Below are positions 32,130 through 41,820 of a stretch of DNA of 64,000 bases, one piece after another (the stretch's first letter is position 1; every line of letters begins with the position of its first letter). The notes beneath the pieces were generated by a model. That model did not search any database and was not told the origin of the DNA. It was given only the letters and a program-made list of their open reading frames with translations. The translations under genes and the position numbers were made by a program. The DNA is from Chlorobiota bacterium (lineage in GTDB: Bacteria > Bacteroidota > Ignavibacteria > Kapaibacteriales > UBA961). The stretch is taken from the NCBI GenBank assembly GCA_014191195.1, contig BJGZ01000011.1, positions 1-64,000 on the forward strand, given 5' to 3'.

Positions 32130-32753
32130 ATGGACATCACTATGAATTCAGGAATTCCTCCGCATAATATGGATGATCAATCTTCTCTCATGGGGTATAA
32201 GAATCTTAGCGATATAGAGCTTTATCTTATGCTTAATGGTGGTGGATCATCAGCCCATTATGGACTGAATATTCTCTATAAGAGATATTCAGCAAGGATT
32301 TATTCCTATTGCAGAAAAATATTGGGCGAGATTCAAGCAACTGATGATATTTTTCAAGAGACATTTGTCCGATTTTATGAAATGGGAGTATTAGGCAGAG
32401 AAGTTCAGAATATTCAAGGATATTTATTAAAGATAGCACGGAATTTATGTCTAAACGAAAAACAAAAGAAGTATAATTCCACTAAAATATCACTCGAAAA
32501 CTTTGAATTTCCTTCTTTTGATACACCATATGAGCAAACTGAATTAAATCGATTAATTGCTACGGCTTTAGAAATGCTTCCTGATGATTATAAAGAAGTA
32601 TTAGTATTAAGAGAAATGCATGGCTATAGTTATAATGAAATAGCTGACATAGTAGAAACAACAATGCCAATAGTACGAACAAGAATTTATAGAGCAAAAC
32701 AAAAAATTCGTGTCATTCTAGCACCATTTATTGATGATTTATATCGTTCATAA
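32130..32753 (+). CDS. ECF-type RNA polymerase sigma factor
   Basis: This 207-residue protein has sigma-70 region 2 (about 40-110: ILYKRYSARIYSYCRKILG ... DDIFQETFVRFYE). Region 4 follows (about 140-200: ALEMLPDDYKEVLVLREMHGYSYNEIADIVETTMPIVRTRIYRAKQKI) with its helix-turn-helix. A second ATG four codons in (32142) is an alternative start. It begins a three-gene run with a putative membrane-spanning anti-sigma protein and a lipoprotein, which is typical of envelope-responsive ECF units. Confidence 0.93.
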   Translation: MDITMNSGIPPHNMDDQSSLMGYKNLSDIELYLMLNGGGSSAHYGLNILYKRYSARIYSYCRKILGEIQATDDIFQETFVRFYEMGVLGREVQNIQGYLLKIARNLCLNEKQKKYNSTKISLENFEFPSFDTPYEQTELNRLIATALEMLPDDYKEVLVLREMHGYSYNEIADIVETTMPIVRTRIYRAKQKIRVILAPFIDDLYRS

Positions 32754-32796
32754 ACATGCTAGGCATATTTAAAAGAAAGTACACATTAGGTTTTAT

Positions 32797-33957
32797 ATGA
32801 GTTTAGATTTTTCACAATTACAACCATCTGAATTATTAACATTATATGTTGATGGTGAATTGCCTGAATTAATGCATCCAACATTGTTTTCCATGCTTGC
32901 ATCAGATTCTGATTTACAGCAGGAAATGAATGAACATCTTACAATGAAGCGTCATTTTGATACTACATTAATAGCACCACCTAAAATATTGCAAGAAGGT
33001 GTATTAAGACGTATAGGAGCCATTGGATTAGGTACTACTGTTGCTCAGCCAACATTTATAGAAACAGCAAAAACTTCTTTGACTGCATTGGTTGGAATTG
33101 TTGTGCAACCTTTGCTTTATTTGTTAACTGGGGCTGCACTTACTGGTTTTTTTATGACATTGAACCCAGATAAACAATTTGTTAATTCAATGCAAAGTTC
33201 ACAAAGCATTCAACAATCTCCATTAGAATTACAGCAAAATTCACATAAACAGTTGAATAATCTTGGAAGGAATAGTTATTCATCAATTGCATTGCCAGCA
33301 TTTAGTTTTTCTCATGTGTATTTCCCAGAAATACATCAAACTTCTATGCTTGATGCATCTGTGAATATTGATAAACCGCTTGCATTATATGATGAATATT
33401 CGCCAGAGAATATATCTGAAACTGTATTAGAAGATATAGTTTGGAAAGCAGAGAAAACAATAATTAATGAAGAACCAACTTCTGAATTTTCTATTGGATT
33501 AAGAGGTTTTACTCAGCATTCTTATACACCACAAACAGTAAATCCATCTATAAAGCCAAGTGTGAATAATCTTGCATTATCTGTAGAATATGCATTATCA
33601 AAAAATAATTCCATATATGCAGAAGGTGGACAAGAATTTATTCCTCATAGATTCAGTGGACAAGAAGGAAATTATTTTATTCAATATGATCAAACATATC
33701 TAGCATCATGGGCAGCTATTGGATGGAAGCATACTTTTACTACCGATTATTCAGTTAAACCAATTATCAAAATATCTGCAGGAGCTACCGAAACAGGACC
33801 ACTAGGCAGAGTATCTGCGGGTATTGAATATGATCTTTCAAATAAAATAACATTAATGACAGGAGTTGAAGGAATTACCTCTTTGTATTCACATCAGCAA
33901 CAATGGTTTAGCACGCAAAAAATAGGCTTAACCTATGGTGCCAAGATTAAGCTTTAG
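32797..33957 (+). CDS. putative anti-sigma factor with inner-membrane helix and C-terminal beta-barrel-like region
   Basis: This 386-residue protein begins with an anti-sigma-like segment (SELLTLYVDGELPE ... SDSDLQQEMNEHLTMKR, about 10-55), as in zinc-free ZAS-related domains, but lacking the HxxxCxxC motif. One hydrophobic segment follows at about 96-120, and then a polar linker rich in Q, N and S (125-225). Residues 229-386 contain eight alternating strands of barrel type, for example ASWAAIGWKHTF, KPIIKISAGAT, RVSAGIEYDL and KIGLTYGAKIKL. The gene is 43 bp after the ECF sigma gene. Anti-sigma function is inferred from position and the N-terminus. Confidence 0.65.
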   Translation: MSLDFSQLQPSELLTLYVDGELPELMHPTLFSMLASDSDLQQEMNEHLTMKRHFDTTLIAPPKILQEGVLRRIGAIGLGTTVAQPTFIETAKTSLTALVGIVVQPLLYLLTGAALTGFFMTLNPDKQFVNSMQSSQSIQQSPLELQQNSHKQLNNLGRNSYSSIALPAFSFSHVYFPEIHQTSMLDASVNIDKPLALYDEYSPENISETVLEDIVWKAEKTIINEEPTSEFSIGLRGFTQHSYTPQTVNPSIKPSVNNLALSVEYALSKNNSIYAEGGQEFIPHRFSGQEGNYFIQYDQTYLASWAAIGWKHTFTTDYSVKPIIKISAGATETGPLGRVSAGIEYDLSNKITLMTGVEGITSLYSHQQQWFSTQKIGLTYGAKIKL

Positions 33958-34005
33958 GATTGCCCCTTGCCACCTATTTCATCAATAGCACACAACACAT
34001 ATTCA

Positions 34006-35112
34006 ATGATTGTTACTACCACATATTCAATCATTACTTTATTATTGATTCTTATCAGTTCTTGTTCTCCAGCGATAGAAGTGCCTGCTGATAGAACAAG
34101 AAATGTGATAGATTCGATAACGTTAGATTCATTATATAGGGAATATTTAGTAGTTAATCCTGCTTCTTTATATTTTGAGTCAGAATTTCCATCCTCGGAA
34201 ATTACAACAACAGTAGAATTCATTAATACTTCAGATTCTTTATTTATTCCCATTAATTCTGTTGTCTTATCTAATGGTGCAATTGGCTTTAAACTTATGT
34301 CTGATAGTATTTCTTTTATCCTATCACCAAAAGGAAAAGTTGGATCAAGTAGAACAATTTCTTTAACATGTAAGCCTACACAAGAAGGAATTATTCAAGA
34401 CACAATCTTAATCAATTCTTGGAAGAATTTTTTTGTACCAATTAGGTGCAATGTATTGCCCGGAACAAGGGTATGGGTAGAAGATTTGCATTTTGGAGAT
34501 TTAATCTTTGGAGAAAATCGCGATACAACTATCAAGGTATATAATAAAGGTAACCGAAATGTGACAGTTACAGGTGCATCTTTTGTATCAGGAGAAATAT
34601 CCCAGTTTCAAGTGCTAAACAATGCTATATTCCCAATGGTAATTTATCCAGGTTATTATAGGTCTATTCCAATTAGATGCATTTCAACTTTATTAGGTTC
34701 TTCTATTTCTGCAGATTTACATGCTAATATTTCATATTCTGGACAAGGCAGAGTTAAACAAATTGCTAAAGTTAATGCTGAAATACATTTAATACCAAAT
34801 GTATATGTAACTGATATACATGTAAATTATGCCTTTAAATCAATGGTATATATGGCTTCTTGTAGTATTGTTAATAATACAGATAGCCCATGTTATGTTA
34901 AAGAATTTGTCAACTTTAAAGATACAGATTCATTAACCATTATTATATCGGGAAAAAATCAAGGGTATTGGCTAAGCCCAAAAACAGCAATGAATTATAT
35001 CGTTAAAATTACTCCTAAATATTCTGGACCTTTTAGTACTAGTTTCGAATTCCCAATTACAAATGCAAATAATCCCAAAAATTACTGTAAGATTACAGGT
35101 GTAACTTTCTGA
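34006..35112 (+). CDS. lipoprotein with ASH/choice-of-anchor D-like Ig repeats
   Basis: I start at the ATG at 34006, which gives a lipoprotein signal (MIVTTTYSIITLLLILISSC). An upstream in-frame TTG at 33967 is possible but adds a polar leader. The mature part contains Ig-like units of the ASH or choice-of-anchor D type: VNPASLYFESEFPSSEIT, then VEDLHFGDLIFGENRDTTIKVYN, then a YVTDIHVNYAFKSM unit. Such domains bind partners, but the partner is unknown. It lies 49 bp after the putative anti-sigma gene and may be the outer sensing partner of that system. Confidence 0.7.
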   Translation: MIVTTTYSIITLLLILISSCSPAIEVPADRTRNVIDSITLDSLYREYLVVNPASLYFESEFPSSEITTTVEFINTSDSLFIPINSVVLSNGAIGFKLMSDSISFILSPKGKVGSSRTISLTCKPTQEGIIQDTILINSWKNFFVPIRCNVLPGTRVWVEDLHFGDLIFGENRDTTIKVYNKGNRNVTVTGASFVSGEISQFQVLNNAIFPMVIYPGYYRSIPIRCISTLLGSSISADLHANISYSGQGRVKQIAKVNAEIHLIPNVYVTDIHVNYAFKSMVYMASCSIVNNTDSPCYVKEFVNFKDTDSLTIIISGKNQGYWLSPKTAMNYIVKITPKYSGPFSTSFEFPITNANNPKNYCKITGVTF

Positions 35113-35969: not shown

Positions 35970-36011
35970 ATGCCTTGTCATCACTTCCCCCCGATGATAA
36001 GGCATTTTTTT
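35970..36011 (+). terminator. rho-independent terminator after tRNA-Gly
   Basis: ATGCCTTGTCATC pairs with GATGATAAGGCAT (one G-T wobble) around the loop ACTTCCCCCC, and seven T residues follow. It ends the tRNA transcript on the plus strand. The T run overlaps the end of the C25 peptidase gene on the other strand by two bases. Confidence 0.92.
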
Positions 36012-39000
36012 ATTCAATTATAATCATCTTACCAAAAACTGGTTCTGTATAACTATCCCCGTTGATTTGCAATTTGAATAGATAGACACCTGGTGCTACA
36101 AGATTACCATCCAAATCTTTACAATCCCATTGAATTTGATTATTGCCAATTGTTGTTATATGATGTAATGTATTAATAATAGATCCATTTATAGAAGCTA
36201 TTGTTAACCGAGAACTTGCATCTTGTTTTTGTGCAGCATATATATAGCCAATTGTTATACTATTGGGTAATTGAATTGGATTAGGCCATTGAATAAGAGA
36301 ATGCACCGAACTATTCAGAACTACATGTAATAATAGCCTTACAGTATCTTTATTTGCAGAAGCATCTTCTGTAAAGACAGTTAATAAATTCTCACCTATA
36401 TCTAATCTGTTTAGGCTTGTAAAATTAAGTGAAACCCTTTGAGTAGATCCATATTCATATTGAGTGAATGTAACCTTTGAAGCTGTAGAATCTGGTTGCC
36501 AATAGCGATTAATTCTTACCCTTAATTTACTAGAATCAAATCTTAAGAAAGAATTGTCTTGAACAATAACAGAAAATGAAGGATTTGCTGAAATTGTATC
36601 ATTATCTTTTAATAGGATACCATCTGCATATACTTGAATTGATGGAGACACAGAATCTTCGTCAATAAATAGTTGCTTGCTTACTGTATTATTAAATCTG
36701 TACATATCTTCATGTGTTAAAGAGCAATCTGAAATCATTGTCCAATCTGTACTTTTAGATACATTTTGTGAAGGAAGAATAACAGAAAATGCATATGCTT
36801 CATTTTTTTGTAATAATGGAATTTGATAAGTATAGGATTCAGATGAATTTGAACCACTAAGAGGTTTTTGTGAAATACAAATATCAGTTAAAGGAAAAGA
36901 AGATTGTTTTAACGATAGATTTTTGATTATGCCAGAAATCTCTAAACTATCTCCTTTTAAGATGGTTTGTCTAGTGTATGTACCTTTTACAGAAAAATCA
37001 GAAGGAAATACTGTTAATTCTGGTGCTGGAATAAATCTACAATTGATACCATTCAATATGGGAGAAAAATCTGAAGAATCATTGATTAAGTTAATATTTA
37101 CAGTGAGATATGGGAATATTTTTGCATCGATAGTGTTCAAATTGATTTTATTATCGGAACCTTCATATAACAATGAATCTTGGGGTATTAAAGAATTTCT
37201 TCCATACACCTGAAAGATAGTGGAATTACCATTGGATAATTGAGTAGAAATATCTAATGAATGCCATTCTTTTGCAGGTCCAATGAATCCTGAAGAATAA
37301 TTTCCTAATTTTTGTAGAATAGTAAGAGTATCAGAAACAGTTAAAGTATCCGAAGATGGAGCAAATTTTTCTATTGCCGAACCAGGGAGACTTCCTTTTC
37401 TGCCTATCATTACATAAGAGGAAGATATTCTATCTGAGCCAGATATTTCGGCACCATTTTGATATGTTTTTGCATTAAAGACAGAGTCGATCAAAGTAGA
37501 ACCACACTCTTTCAGAGCATCAATTAAACTTTGAGAATCTCCAATAAGCCCCGCCGATGTAACTATAGGACCTCTAAAACATGCATCAGAAACTGTTATG
37601 ACAATATAATCACCTTTTTGCACAGAATCTTTAAGGAAGGTGACTAGGTCTTTTGAATTCCCTCGATAATCTTGTTCATTGTCTTGTGGACTTAAAAATG
37701 CATTAAACTCTCGGAATGTACCAATAGTATCATAAGGACTAATCTTTAGTACACATAATTTTGCAGCATCATTTCTTTCGATATATACTCTACCACCATA
37801 ATTAATGTCCGCATAGCGTCCACCAGCACCCGCATTACAACCAATAACAGTTATATTCCTTTGTATAGATGAAATTGACAAAGCTGATGAAATAGCATTA
37901 ATATCTAATTGACGAGTAGCAGACTCTTTCCAGGCTGCAAGGTTGAACAATGAAAAATGAACTGTATCGCTAGCACTTTTTTCAATATGAATAGGTATAG
38001 ATGTCCATTTACTATATTGATTTGTAAGTGAATCAAGCACTCGAGCATTAAACAGAATATCTTTTCCTATATATTGCTGCAAGGCATCAGCAGAGGGAAA
38101 CCAATCAATATACCCTTCATACACTTTCAATGTATTATCTGTATCACCCATATATTGAGAGATAATTGAATCATTATTTATATGTTTTAACTGTAATTCT
38201 AATGATTGTGCAGAAGAATTTTTTGGGATAATGCATCTAAATTGAGGTTTTTCTGCATTAACTGTCCAGCCAGGAAGTGGATCTACCATAGACAATCCAT
38301 TAGCAAACACATTCACGGGAATAGACAGAATATTATTATCCTTGATATTTTCTTCCTGAATTACGCTATCTGGATCGATATGAACTGTAATCATATGAGT
38401 ACCAGAAATACCTTTAATAGGAATATTAAGGGAAAACGAACTACTTCTACACAAAGAGTCTGTAGAAATATTAAATGTATCTTTTATGCTGCCAATAGAA
38501 TGCATAATGCGAATAGGAATATTTTTTCCATTACCAATTCCTCTATTGTGGCATATTCCATGTAGAGTAAATATGCTATCATTTGCAGAAATAGTAGCAG
38601 AAGTAAGCGATAGATCACTTGTTCTTATATAATAATCGGGCTTATCTACAAGGGCTAGATTTGTCATTGGATCGCCCATTAGATTAAATTGCAAGCAAGA
38701 ATTATTAAACAAAATATCAAATCCAAAATTTCCTGCTTTAGCGCTATTAACAAGGTCACCAATTCTTCTTACATAATTATTGCTAGCCATAATGCTAAAT
38801 AAAGAGGTAAAAAGACTATAATCTGTGCTTACAATTCCTGTAAATGTATTTCCTAATGATGCCACAGAACCTTTATTTGCTTCGGTTAGATATGTTTCAT
38901 TTCTACAAGGACCGGAAGGTTCACCAAATGCACCTGAACTACAAGAAAAAGTAGAAAGAAGGAAATACTTACCTTTATTATTTAAATCAGGAGCTCTCCA

Positions 39001-41820
39001 CCCATCTAATTCATAATAAAGAGGGGATCCATGCCCAATGAAATTAACCCATAATGCACCTTCATTGATTGCAGAACGAATTTTAAATGAAATAGATTCA
39101 TCAACTCCACCCAGGGCATTTTGCCTGAAAATTCTTGTTGTATCACCACAAATATTACTATTGGTTAGATATTCATTAATCCCATCATATTGATTATAAA
39201 AGGTATTATCTTCGGGATCTCCTCCAGACAAAAACAGAAAATGTTTCATCCATGGCGATGCCTTTAACTCGTCATATTCTATGATTTTATTTACAGTTGC
39301 AATTGCTTCTTCAGGAGTAGAAACAGGCAATCTGCCAATAACCATATCCGGATTTTTTTTAGTACTGTCTAATAATGAAAACCAAACATCACTAACAGGA
39401 AAACCATAAGTTGGAACAAAATCATTTTGATTAGACGTATTTAGCAATTTGAGTGGGTCCCAACTAGCATTTCCAATTAACACAGCATATAATGGAGCAG
39501 GCTTTTTCCATTGTTCATGTGCATGTTTTAAAAAACTTTTAATTGCATGTACAGATTTAATTCCATGATTAAACTCTTTGTAAATATCCTTCACATCAAC
39601 AATTTTTATTATCCATCCCTGTTTATTTCTATGTTCGGCAAGTATTTTTGCTTGTTCAGCAAAATCAGAATGTACTATAAAAACGGCATCTGCTTGTGAA
39701 TTCTCTTGTAATAGATCGCTTGAAGAAACAACTTCAATGCTTGTTTCAGCAAAAGCTTCTGCATCTACTATATAACCAGAAAAATTGTTTTGTGAATTGA
39801 TATATGCACGATAGGCTTGGCCAGATTCTGAAGGCAAAAATTCTTGCATTGAAGTATAACCAAAAGCAATATGTCTTTGTAGATTTCCGCCATTGATTAA
39901 TAATGAAAAAGGCCCAGATTGAGGCGTTTGAATCGTTCCTAATAAGTCTCTTTTTTCATTTTGACTTAATGATTGTAAAAGGTTGCCAGATGAAAGTAAA
40001 AGTGCATAAGTATATTGAGAATAACTATTTAAGACGTTTTTTATATCTTGATATGTTTGAACTTGAATAAAATGAGTTGTTCCATCTTTCATTAATACCC
40101 ATAATATACAACCTGAATATATTTTTGAGAAATAGAGTGAATCCCTAAACATCAATGATGTAAACCCATTAGAAGCAATACCTGCAGAAATGATATCACC
40201 TTTTTTTTGAGTAGAATCTACTAGATAGGAATTATTTAGAGTATCTATAACAGTATATGATGATGTTCTTAATCCATCAATTTGCATTGAAATTGGCTGA
40301 TCTTTTTTATTGGAATATGCAAGTTCACCCTGTTCACATAATAGTTTTGTGTTATGTGATATTTCATAATAATTAAGATAAAGTTCTGTAAATACATTGT
40401 CAGAGATAGATATAGATCGTATCTGAAGAATATTTGCCCCAGGAATAACCAAAGATGCAGGAACAGAAATAGACACAAATTTATCTGTCATACCAGAAAA
40501 AGAATCTGTAGCAATACGATTACCATTCCATAAAATCTCTACATTATGGTCAAATTGCATTGTGTCAATATCAGAAGCTCCATGAAGAGCAATGGATAAT
40601 GATAAAGGAGTTGAAGTTGCTGTTAATTGAAGCGTATCAGTAAAAACCGAGTATGGACTTAATGTGCTTAGTCTTTGCCAAAAGAAATTTTTGCCAAATT
40701 TAAAATCACAAGAAAGTATAGAAAATTCAAATGCTGATGTTTTATCACCAGCATAGATACTATGATCCTCTTCTATATGTTTAGAGACAATACCTATAGA
40801 ATCTATAGTATTGAAAGGAATGGATTGAATGGTAGATAATCGAGCAGATTTATCGGATACAGGACCATTTTCTAATGTTAAAAAGAAAGAAGACTCATCT
40901 GTAACACGATTAAACCATGTAGTATCTCCGGCAGCACGTTTAGATGCAAAAAAGAAAGAATCATCATTGCTTAATATATTATCATTGTCTTTATCAATTC
41001 CAAAAGGATAGGTATTCCCTTTATATATAAGCCTGAATCTTGACAATTCCTTACCTAGCCATTCTGGTTTATTTGTAATAATTTCTTTGCCAGAAATCTT
41101 GGCTATACCATCTTTCTTTGTAATCAATCGAATATATTTTTGATTTGCTGAATACCAATTTTCAGTCAGAATTTTTTCTGTTTTTCTATTATATTGTACA
41201 ATACAAGCTGGAATATGTTGAGGATTTATAATTCTAGACAAAAAACCACTTTCTTTCTCATTGATATGATAAGTTGGAATATTCTGTACTACATGAGAAA
41301 ATTCAATATGCACGATGATTGTATCTGCAATAGATAATTTCCCTGATTGATAATCATATCTAAAGGGCTGTATTGTTAATTCTGCTACGGGGATTTCTCT
41401 TAAGGTACCTTGTCTTTCTAGATGGACAAATTCTTTAATATCTTTTTTACATTCTTGAGACTGGGAGAAAAAATTCAGGATAGCCAAAGGATTTTGCAAC
41501 TGAATAGATTTCCATCCATTCATTGTATACTTTATATTGATTGTCCCTGTATTTGGAACAGCTAATAGAGGAAATAAAGATTGAAGTGCAGGTGATGAAT
41601 TATCAATAGAAAACCTAGCATCCGCACTATTTGGAATATGTACACAATTCACAAGTGAATTGGAAGGCATATTTTGTTGTTTTGTTTGTAGATGAGTAAT
41701 TGTAAGGACAATGCCTTTAGGTGTATAAACAATTGTTTGTTCGCCAAATACACAATTAGTAAACACTATACACAGTAATAGTGCACCAATAAACAATCTA
41801 TAGAACATATATAAACTCAT
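36010..41820 (-). CDS. gingipain/PorU-like C25 cysteine peptidase, 1936 aa
   Basis: This protein has a signal peptide (about 1-26). Beta-rich N-terminal domains run to about 690, then a C25 peptidase domain (about 700-1075) with H930 in FIGHG and C960 in FSCSSGA. A CARDB-like segment lies near 1090-1210. An ILEI-like lectin domain lies near 1370-1530 (RGNSKDLVTFLKDS, YIVITVSDACFRG, SYVMIGRKGS). Ig-like domains and a final FlgD-type domain (WDCKDLDGNLVAPGVYLFKLQ) end the chain. C25 proteins include the T9SS sortase PorU and secreted gingipains. It is far longer than PorU (about 1150 aa), so it may be a surface peptidase instead. Confidence 0.85.
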   Translation of the reverse strand: MSLYMFYRLFIGALLLCIVFTNCVFGEQTIVYTPKGIVLTITHLQTKQQNMPSNSLVNCVHIPNSADARFSIDNSSPALQSLFPLLAVPNTGTINIKYTMNGWKSIQLQNPLAILNFFSQSQECKKDIKEFVHLERQGTLREIPVAELTIQPFRYDYQSGKLSIADTIIVHIEFSHVVQNIPTYHINEKESGFLSRIINPQHIPACIVQYNRKTEKILTENWYSANQKYIRLITKKDGIAKISGKEIITNKPEWLGKELSRFRLIYKGNTYPFGIDKDNDNILSNDDSFFFASKRAAGDTTWFNRVTDESSFFLTLENGPVSDKSARLSTIQSIPFNTIDSIGIVSKHIEEDHSIYAGDKTSAFEFSILSCDFKFGKNFFWQRLSTLSPYSVFTDTLQLTATSTPLSLSIALHGASDIDTMQFDHNVEILWNGNRIATDSFSGMTDKFVSISVPASLVIPGANILQIRSISISDNVFTELYLNYYEISHNTKLLCEQGELAYSNKKDQPISMQIDGLRTSSYTVIDTLNNSYLVDSTQKKGDIISAGIASNGFTSLMFRDSLYFSKIYSGCILWVLMKDGTTHFIQVQTYQDIKNVLNSYSQYTYALLLSSGNLLQSLSQNEKRDLLGTIQTPQSGPFSLLINGGNLQRHIAFGYTSMQEFLPSESGQAYRAYINSQNNFSGYIVDAEAFAETSIEVVSSSDLLQENSQADAVFIVHSDFAEQAKILAEHRNKQGWIIKIVDVKDIYKEFNHGIKSVHAIKSFLKHAHEQWKKPAPLYAVLIGNASWDPLKLLNTSNQNDFVPTYGFPVSDVWFSLLDSTKKNPDMVIGRLPVSTPEEAIATVNKIIEYDELKASPWMKHFLFLSGGDPEDNTFYNQYDGINEYLTNSNICGDTTRIFRQNALGGVDESISFKIRSAINEGALWVNFIGHGSPLYYELDGWRAPDLNNKGKYFLLSTFSCSSGAFGEPSGPCRNETYLTEANKGSVASLGNTFTGIVSTDYSLFTSLFSIMASNNYVRRIGDLVNSAKAGNFGFDILFNNSCLQFNLMGDPMTNLALVDKPDYYIRTSDLSLTSATISANDSIFTLHGICHNRGIGNGKNIPIRIMHSIGSIKDTFNISTDSLCRSSSFSLNIPIKGISGTHMITVHIDPDSVIQEENIKDNNILSIPVNVFANGLSMVDPLPGWTVNAEKPQFRCIIPKNSSAQSLELQLKHINNDSIISQYMGDTDNTLKVYEGYIDWFPSADALQQYIGKDILFNARVLDSLTNQYSKWTSIPIHIEKSASDTVHFSLFNLAAWKESATRQLDINAISSALSISSIQRNITVIGCNAGAGGRYADINYGGRVYIERNDAAKLCVLKISPYDTIGTFREFNAFLSPQDNEQDYRGNSKDLVTFLKDSVQKGDYIVITVSDACFRGPIVTSAGLIGDSQSLIDALKECGSTLIDSVFNAKTYQNGAEISGSDRISSSYVMIGRKGSLPGSAIEKFAPSSDTLTVSDTLTILQKLGNYSSGFIGPAKEWHSLDISTQLSNGNSTIFQVYGRNSLIPQDSLLYEGSDNKINLNTIDAKIFPYLTVNINLINDSSDFSPILNGINCRFIPAPELTVFPSDFSVKGTYTRQTILKGDSLEISGIIKNLSLKQSSFPLTDICISQKPLSGSNSSESYTYQIPLLQKNEAYAFSVILPSQNVSKSTDWTMISDCSLTHEDMYRFNNTVSKQLFIDEDSVSPSIQVYADGILLKDNDTISANPSFSVIVQDNSFLRFDSSKLRVRINRYWQPDSTASKVTFTQYEYGSTQRVSLNFTSLNRLDIGENLLTVFTEDASANKDTVRLLLHVVLNSSVHSLIQWPNPIQLPNSITIGYIYAAQKQDASSRLTIASINGSIINTLHHITTIGNNQIQWDCKDLDGNLVAPGVYLFKLQINGDSYTEPVFGKMIIIE

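Follow-up and report, generated by a model that had tools for sequence, protein, structure and literature searches.

A predicted trans-envelope anti-sigma factor joining an RseA-type domain to an outer-membrane barrel, with a partner lipoprotein, in Kapaibacteria

The passage of a signal from the outer membrane to the control of genes usually takes several proteins. A 2024 publication on Bacteroides reportedly presented the first single chain that spans both membranes. In Bacteroides thetaiotaomicron, the dual membrane-spanning anti-sigma factors (Dma) are made of an N-terminal anti-sigma domain, a helix, a disordered tether, and a C-terminal barrel, and they are encoded beside ECF21 sigma factors; Dma2 lies in a three-gene operon, and Dma is said to occur solely in Bacteroidota (PMC13088901). 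As of 2026, this trans-envelope single-chain design, with its ECF21 partner, was called unique to that phylum (PMC13088901). Two other systems are close to parts of the locus described here: RseA, whose Asp11 pairs with Arg178 of RpoE and is required for inhibition (PMC7406223), and RcsF–OmpA, in which the N-terminal segment of a lipoprotein engages an OmpA-type eight-strand barrel and signals the state of the envelope (PMC4942254, PMC7553776).

The locus lies in a window of 64,000 nucleotides, this being the whole stretch of DNA that was analysed, from a Chlorobiota bacterium whose assembly comprises 2.4 Mb in 29 contigs. The closest named relatives of this genome are MAGs labeled "Candidatus Kapaibacterium" and "Ignavibacteria bacterium", and the NCBI taxonomy places Kapaibacterium under Bacteroidota, class Eximiradiia. 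Three closely spaced genes on the + strand encode an ECF sigma factor (gene 1), a 386-aa protein (gene 2), and a lipoprotein (gene 3), flanked by purD upstream and a lipB-like gene downstream, both named by reading their translations (Table 1). The initial annotation had the coordinates and features of all three reading frames right; its start for gene 3, a TTG at 33967, is possible, but the ATG at 34006 is likelier and gives a 368-aa lipoprotein with Cys20. Quite probably, the three genes form a one-polypeptide trans-envelope signalling system, in which gene 2 would silence the sigma factor of gene 1, and the lipoprotein of gene 3 would dock on the barrel as an exchangeable sensor. As a separate observation on the neighbourhood, the − strand encodes at 36010–41820 a 1936-aa secreted protein which, on reading alone, has the look of a protease of gingipain type, or of type IX secretion, whose C-terminus resembles a sorting tail.

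Table 1. Coordinates in the window of the three genes and of the predicted parts of gene 2
Feature	Position	Strand	Remark
Gene 1, ECF sigma factor (regions 2 and 4), gene 2 partner	32130–32753	+	207 aa
Gene 2, trans-envelope anti-sigma factor (predicted)	32797–33957	+	386 aa
Class I anti-sigma domain, gene 2 residues 1–92, cytoplasmic (predicted)	32797–33072	+	
Single inner-membrane helix (predicted), gene 2 residues 93–122	33073–33162	+	
Disordered periplasmic tether (predicted), gene 2 residues 123–228	33163–33480	+	
Eight-strand outer-membrane barrel (predicted), gene 2 residues 229–386	33481–33954	+	
Gene 3, partner lipoprotein, 368 aa, Cys20, ASH/Ig-like domains	34006–35112	+	from ATG

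That gene 1 encodes a sigma factor, as first annotated, is borne out by two Pfam domains above their cut-offs, Sigma70_r2 (6.8e-10) and Sigma70_r4_2 (2.1e-13), and by a score of 79.1 bits against the sigma70-ECF superfamily (cut-off 42.9). Regions 2 and 4 thus pass their cut-offs and regions 1 and 3 are absent, which is the pattern that defines an ECF sigma factor.

The N-terminal domain of gene 2 gives no good match when the protein is used as a single query. A profile was built from the first ∼90 residues of 50 family members and searched against 177,635 PDB sequences; its three best matches are RseA (1or7_C, 7e-4), DdvA (8rlz_A, 1.1e-3), and RsiW (5wuq_C, 6.4e-3), with MucA and a further RseA ranking lower. 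The YVDGEL motif of gene 2 aligns on LMDGET of RseA and brings the nearly invariant Asp19 onto RseA Asp11, a position that is D or E in all 50 members. No N-domain of the 50 carries a zinc motif, and Pfam assigns RseA_N to two of them and zf-HC2 to one. AlphaFold2 (AF2) places helices at residues 10–18, 24–33, 38–55, and 63–74, at low confidence (pLDDT below 50 in the N-terminal half, from shallow alignments of 5–7 sequences). The anti-sigma-like character that had been read from this N-terminus is therefore upheld by the profile matches and the acidic residue, and its identity as a class I, non-zinc anti-sigma domain of RseA/RsiW type is well supported. On the sigma factor side, the column of Lys190 in gene 1, which is K or R in 57 of 59 partner ECFs, we take to be equivalent to RpoE Arg178, the contact of RseA Asp11, the columns of RpoE and the ECFs having been assigned by eye. 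The acidic residue of gene 2 and its relatives may accordingly be the one that touches this basic column.

Beyond this domain, gene 2 has just one hydrophobic helix, previously put at about 96–120 and now found at 93–119 by hydropathy (1.97 at 97–115) and at 96–122 by AF2, which then predicts disorder to about residue 230. The linker of 105 residues that had been described is confirmed at about that length. Tether length in the 50 members ranges between 94 and 192 residues, with a median of 135, whereas the C-terminal domain is nearly constant, mostly 156–168 residues (about 161). The tether is rich in S, A, P, T, and Q, has no cysteine in any family member, and within the genus retains only 14–25% identity, as against 50–55% at both ends of the protein. 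At ∼0.35 nm per residue for an extended chain, even a tether of minimum length would stretch to about 33 nm, which is enough for crossing a periplasm.

The C-terminal domain had been described as eight alternating strands in residues 229–386, and AF2, run with seven sequences, indeed predicts eight strands there (231–241, 258–266, 271–290, 293–313, 320–331, 335–346, 351–366, and 369–385). By sequence, the domain is less easily placed: the best Pfam match to an outer-membrane protein (OMP) family stays below threshold (E 0.035; PF13505, 14.7 bits against a cut-off of 28.7), and a profile of the domain finds no barrel among PDB sequences, so that comparison of folds was needed. Both results would be expected if the strands formed a soluble periplasmic β-domain, gene 2 then being a conventional anti-sigma factor of the inner membrane that senses in the periplasm. 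This reading is very improbable in the face of the structural evidence. Folded alone, the domain gives a barrel with a mean pLDDT of 77.5 and a pTM of 0.70, from a shallow alignment, and every one of the 37 Foldseek matches to the PDB at E ≤ 0.001 is a barrel, either of the outer membrane or a designed transmembrane one, with OmpA, OprF, and NspA at the head of the list and Ail among the rest (TM-scores of 0.62–0.64 for OmpA and 0.60 for NspA); the fold matches of the full-length model agree. The strands are long and the composition is rich in Gly and aromatic residues. By the β-signal rule for OMP C-termini, the ending of gene 2, TYGAKIKL, is β-signal-like, and most family members end in a TYGxxIxF-like form of this type, with about a quarter having an extra R or another terminal residue instead of F/L/I. 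We have thus rejected a soluble C-terminal β-sandwich, the outcome that had been named as fatal to the barrel; an eight-strand barrel of OmpX/OmpA type is well supported by the models. The trans-envelope topology first suggested for this chain is likewise well supported by prediction, with the membrane location and the control of the sigma factor standing as predicted properties.

The same architecture recurs widely among the relatives. Homologues occur in 40 of the 41 genomes searched (the source genome and 40 relatives), and on these grounds a chance fusion or a misassembly was rejected. A four-sequence alignment used as query in named genomes returned essentially matches within the genus alone. 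The profile search gave full-length matches in each of the 24 complete genomes sampled from the Kapaibacteria order, where the fusion beside ECF genes had been suggested as something to look for, together with related fusions in a small number of genomes from other parts of the class (L179–L183, L186); in the rest of the phylum, the profile matches are mostly to the N-domain alone. In 60 of 61 loci, the fusion gene is immediately preceded by a co-directional ECF gene, usually no more than 45 bases away, L047 being the sole exception, which disposes of the possibility raised earlier that the two halves of the protein are never near a sigma factor; since the loci and genomes are related, these counts are not independent events. 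One genome (G029) carries at least 14 loci, counted as distinct contig places (L028, L029, L032, L046, L047, and others on further contigs), a high number of copies for a regulator that would span the envelope. The source genome holds two such barrels, both inside the fusion, and also encodes barrel-less, ordinary anti-sigma factors beside other ECFs (L213, L214, L217). Compared with a 95%-identical relative, gene 2 is under purifying selection, with dN/dS values of 0.03 for the N-domain, 0.17 for the tether, and 0.08 for the barrel. An architecture kept across an order and under purifying selection implies more than chance.

Gene 3 had been annotated as an ASH-like lipoprotein that could complete the sensor. 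Its ASH match is at E 0.0033 when taken alone, and 10 of 14 relatives match as well (best 2.8e-11); with Cys20, the description stands. Its link to the sensor has gained operon linkage and a shared motif as support beyond the initial annotation, and the docking on the barrel is proposed on this basis. No fewer than 52 of 59 loci have a putative lipoprotein after the fusion gene, compared with 29 of the 131 other reading frames of the same loci (Fisher p 3e-18, an optimistic value given that the relatives are non-independent). These figures come from a pattern applied equally to the background, which replaced a strict lipobox pattern that undercounted the lipoproteins (30 of 59). The lipoproteins belong to unrelated families, namely ASH/Ig-like (14, including the one in the window), an unnamed family (20), TIG, and others, and share a motif that starts at the lipidation cysteine, C-x-[SDN]-P-x-[DE]-[LVI]-[DPN]-x-x-R, which in gene 3 reads CSPAIEVPADR. 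Of 49 module lipoproteins, 31 carry one form of this motif, compared with none of 60 background ones, and when the profiles of the two main families are compared, only the signal-peptide end and the post-Cys stretch align (prob 92.5%). Because the outer domains are unrelated and the post-Cys motif is shared, the motif would contact an invariant component, the barrel being the simplest candidate, and the outer domain would act as the variable sensor.

The order of the domains, the class I anti-sigma identity, the barrel fold, the operon linkage, and the lipoprotein linkage are all well supported by computation, and they suggest the following course of events for membrane location, sigma binding, lipoprotein docking, signal, and proteolytic release. 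In the cytoplasm, the RseA-type domain of gene 2 would bind and silence the sigma factor of gene 1; the single helix would anchor the protein in the inner membrane, with the flexible tether crossing the periplasm and the barrel seated in the outer membrane, where the lipoprotein of gene 3 would dock through its membrane-proximal motif as the exchangeable sensor. An outer-membrane event, be it a ligand or damage perceived through the lipoprotein or the barrel, or failed assembly of the barrel, may then open the tether to a site-1 protease, after which an RseP-type protease would cut the helix and free the sigma factor.

The source genome encodes proteases of the M50 (RseP) and HtrA families, which would equally serve a reading in which the protein reports on assembly and senses no ligand: the barrel would be a client of BAM, and when unassembled its exposed β-signal would activate a DegS-like protease to cleave the very chain that bears it. 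The RseA-type N-domain and the OMP-like C-terminal signal are in keeping with this, and in E. coli RseA cleavage is set off by the exposed termini of OMPs that have not folded (PMC8103513). We regard it nonetheless as an unlikely account, as 14 or more loci in one genome, and co-encoded lipoproteins with varied outer domains, point to specific inputs and not to one general folding stress.

The closest described relative of gene 2 in layout is Dma, with which it shares the order of the parts, the adjoining ECF gene, and, in the case of Dma2, the three-gene operon. For comparison, a Bacteroidia set (L170, L172, L190–L204) was chosen by layout as a stand-in for the published B. theta proteins; a few loci were picked by hand and then extended by single-protein searches, and searches with PF13568 gave mostly ordinary porins. 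In most of these loci, just ∼45 residues precede the helix, whereas the N-domain of gene 2 has about 90 and is of RseA type. The N-domain profiles of the two groups do not match (hhalign prob 0.8%), and the barrels match weakly, over 38 columns (prob 68%). In a quick tree with some long branches and no ECF21 reference, the sigma partners of the Bacteroidia genes form a separate clade (SH-aLRT 100) and the ECFs of the gene 2 family fall outside it.

A third version exists in Kapaibacteria (L187, L188, L080), where the barrel of the window (prob 99.6%) sits on another N-terminus and has its own sigma clade, from which it follows that the domains have been swapped. In L080:2553–4644, this barrel has a short N-terminus unrelated to RseA and an ECF of the third clade. 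In L187:1323–6403 and L188:1248–4747, the genes downstream of the ECF and the third-version barrel protein encode serpin lipoproteins (E about 1e-99 to Pfam Serpin; a tandem pair in L187), which places a protease inhibitor next to an envelope sensor. Among the Bacteroidia proteins of Dma type, those in L195:388–2049 and L196:214–2079 appear to repeat the N-terminal motif before the helix, which perhaps gives two sigma-binding segments.

Gene 2 could still be an orthologous Dma member that shares a trans-envelope ancestor with Dma1–3 and whose N-terminus has diverged beyond recognition. The common four-part layout, ECF neighbour, and three-gene operon (PMC13088901), the placement of both in the phylum Bacteroidota (NCBI), and the weak match of the barrels would fit such an ancestry, but the unmatched N-domains of different length, the separate groups of sigma partners, and the third N-terminus on the same barrel make it rather doubtful. 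As the N-domain profiles show no similarity, gene 2 is not filed as a Dma member. From the sequences compared, its family is a distinct, RseA-type variant of the trans-envelope anti-sigma layout, possibly of independent origin from Dma. More broadly, and as a tentative view that falls somewhat short of likely, trans-envelope anti-sigma factors may have arisen independently more than once in Bacteroidota, from unrelated anti-sigma domains and tethered barrels, and in Kapaibacteria they may belong to a receptor made of three parts, the post-Cys motif serving as the plug by which lipoproteins with exchangeable outer domains fit into the barrel.

How this family stands beside the known systems can be seen part by part. 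RcsF–OmpA offers a possible analogy for the contact between gene 3 and the barrel, although Rcs is a phosphorelay and the contact proposed here is one that we purely infer. As in FecR/FpvR signalling, information would pass from an outer-membrane barrel to an anti-sigma factor in the inner membrane and its ECF sigma factor; in those systems the barrel is a separate TonB-dependent transporter, whereas gene 2 has barrel and anti-sigma domain in one chain. FecR-type signalling was rejected for this locus, as gene 2 has no Pfam match to a FecR domain and the adjoining genes are purD and the lipB-like gene, not one for a TonB-dependent receptor. With regard to Dma, where loss of the protein reportedly increases outer-membrane vesicle production by way of the sigma factor, the further difference is the link to an ASH-type lipoprotein with a conserved motif, a feature absent from the published description (PMC13088901). 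RseA and RsiW resemble gene 2 in the Asp11-equivalent of the N-domain and the single helix, and gene 2 lacks a zinc motif as RseA does; they end in periplasmic or extracellular segments, whereas gene 2 runs on into a predicted outer-membrane barrel. The design known from Dma would thus be built here from a textbook RseA-type domain, with a lipoprotein partner added, and it is present in every sampled complete genome of a poorly known order, providing a testable receptor model that would link the RseA/RpoE stress pathway to direct sensing at the outer membrane.
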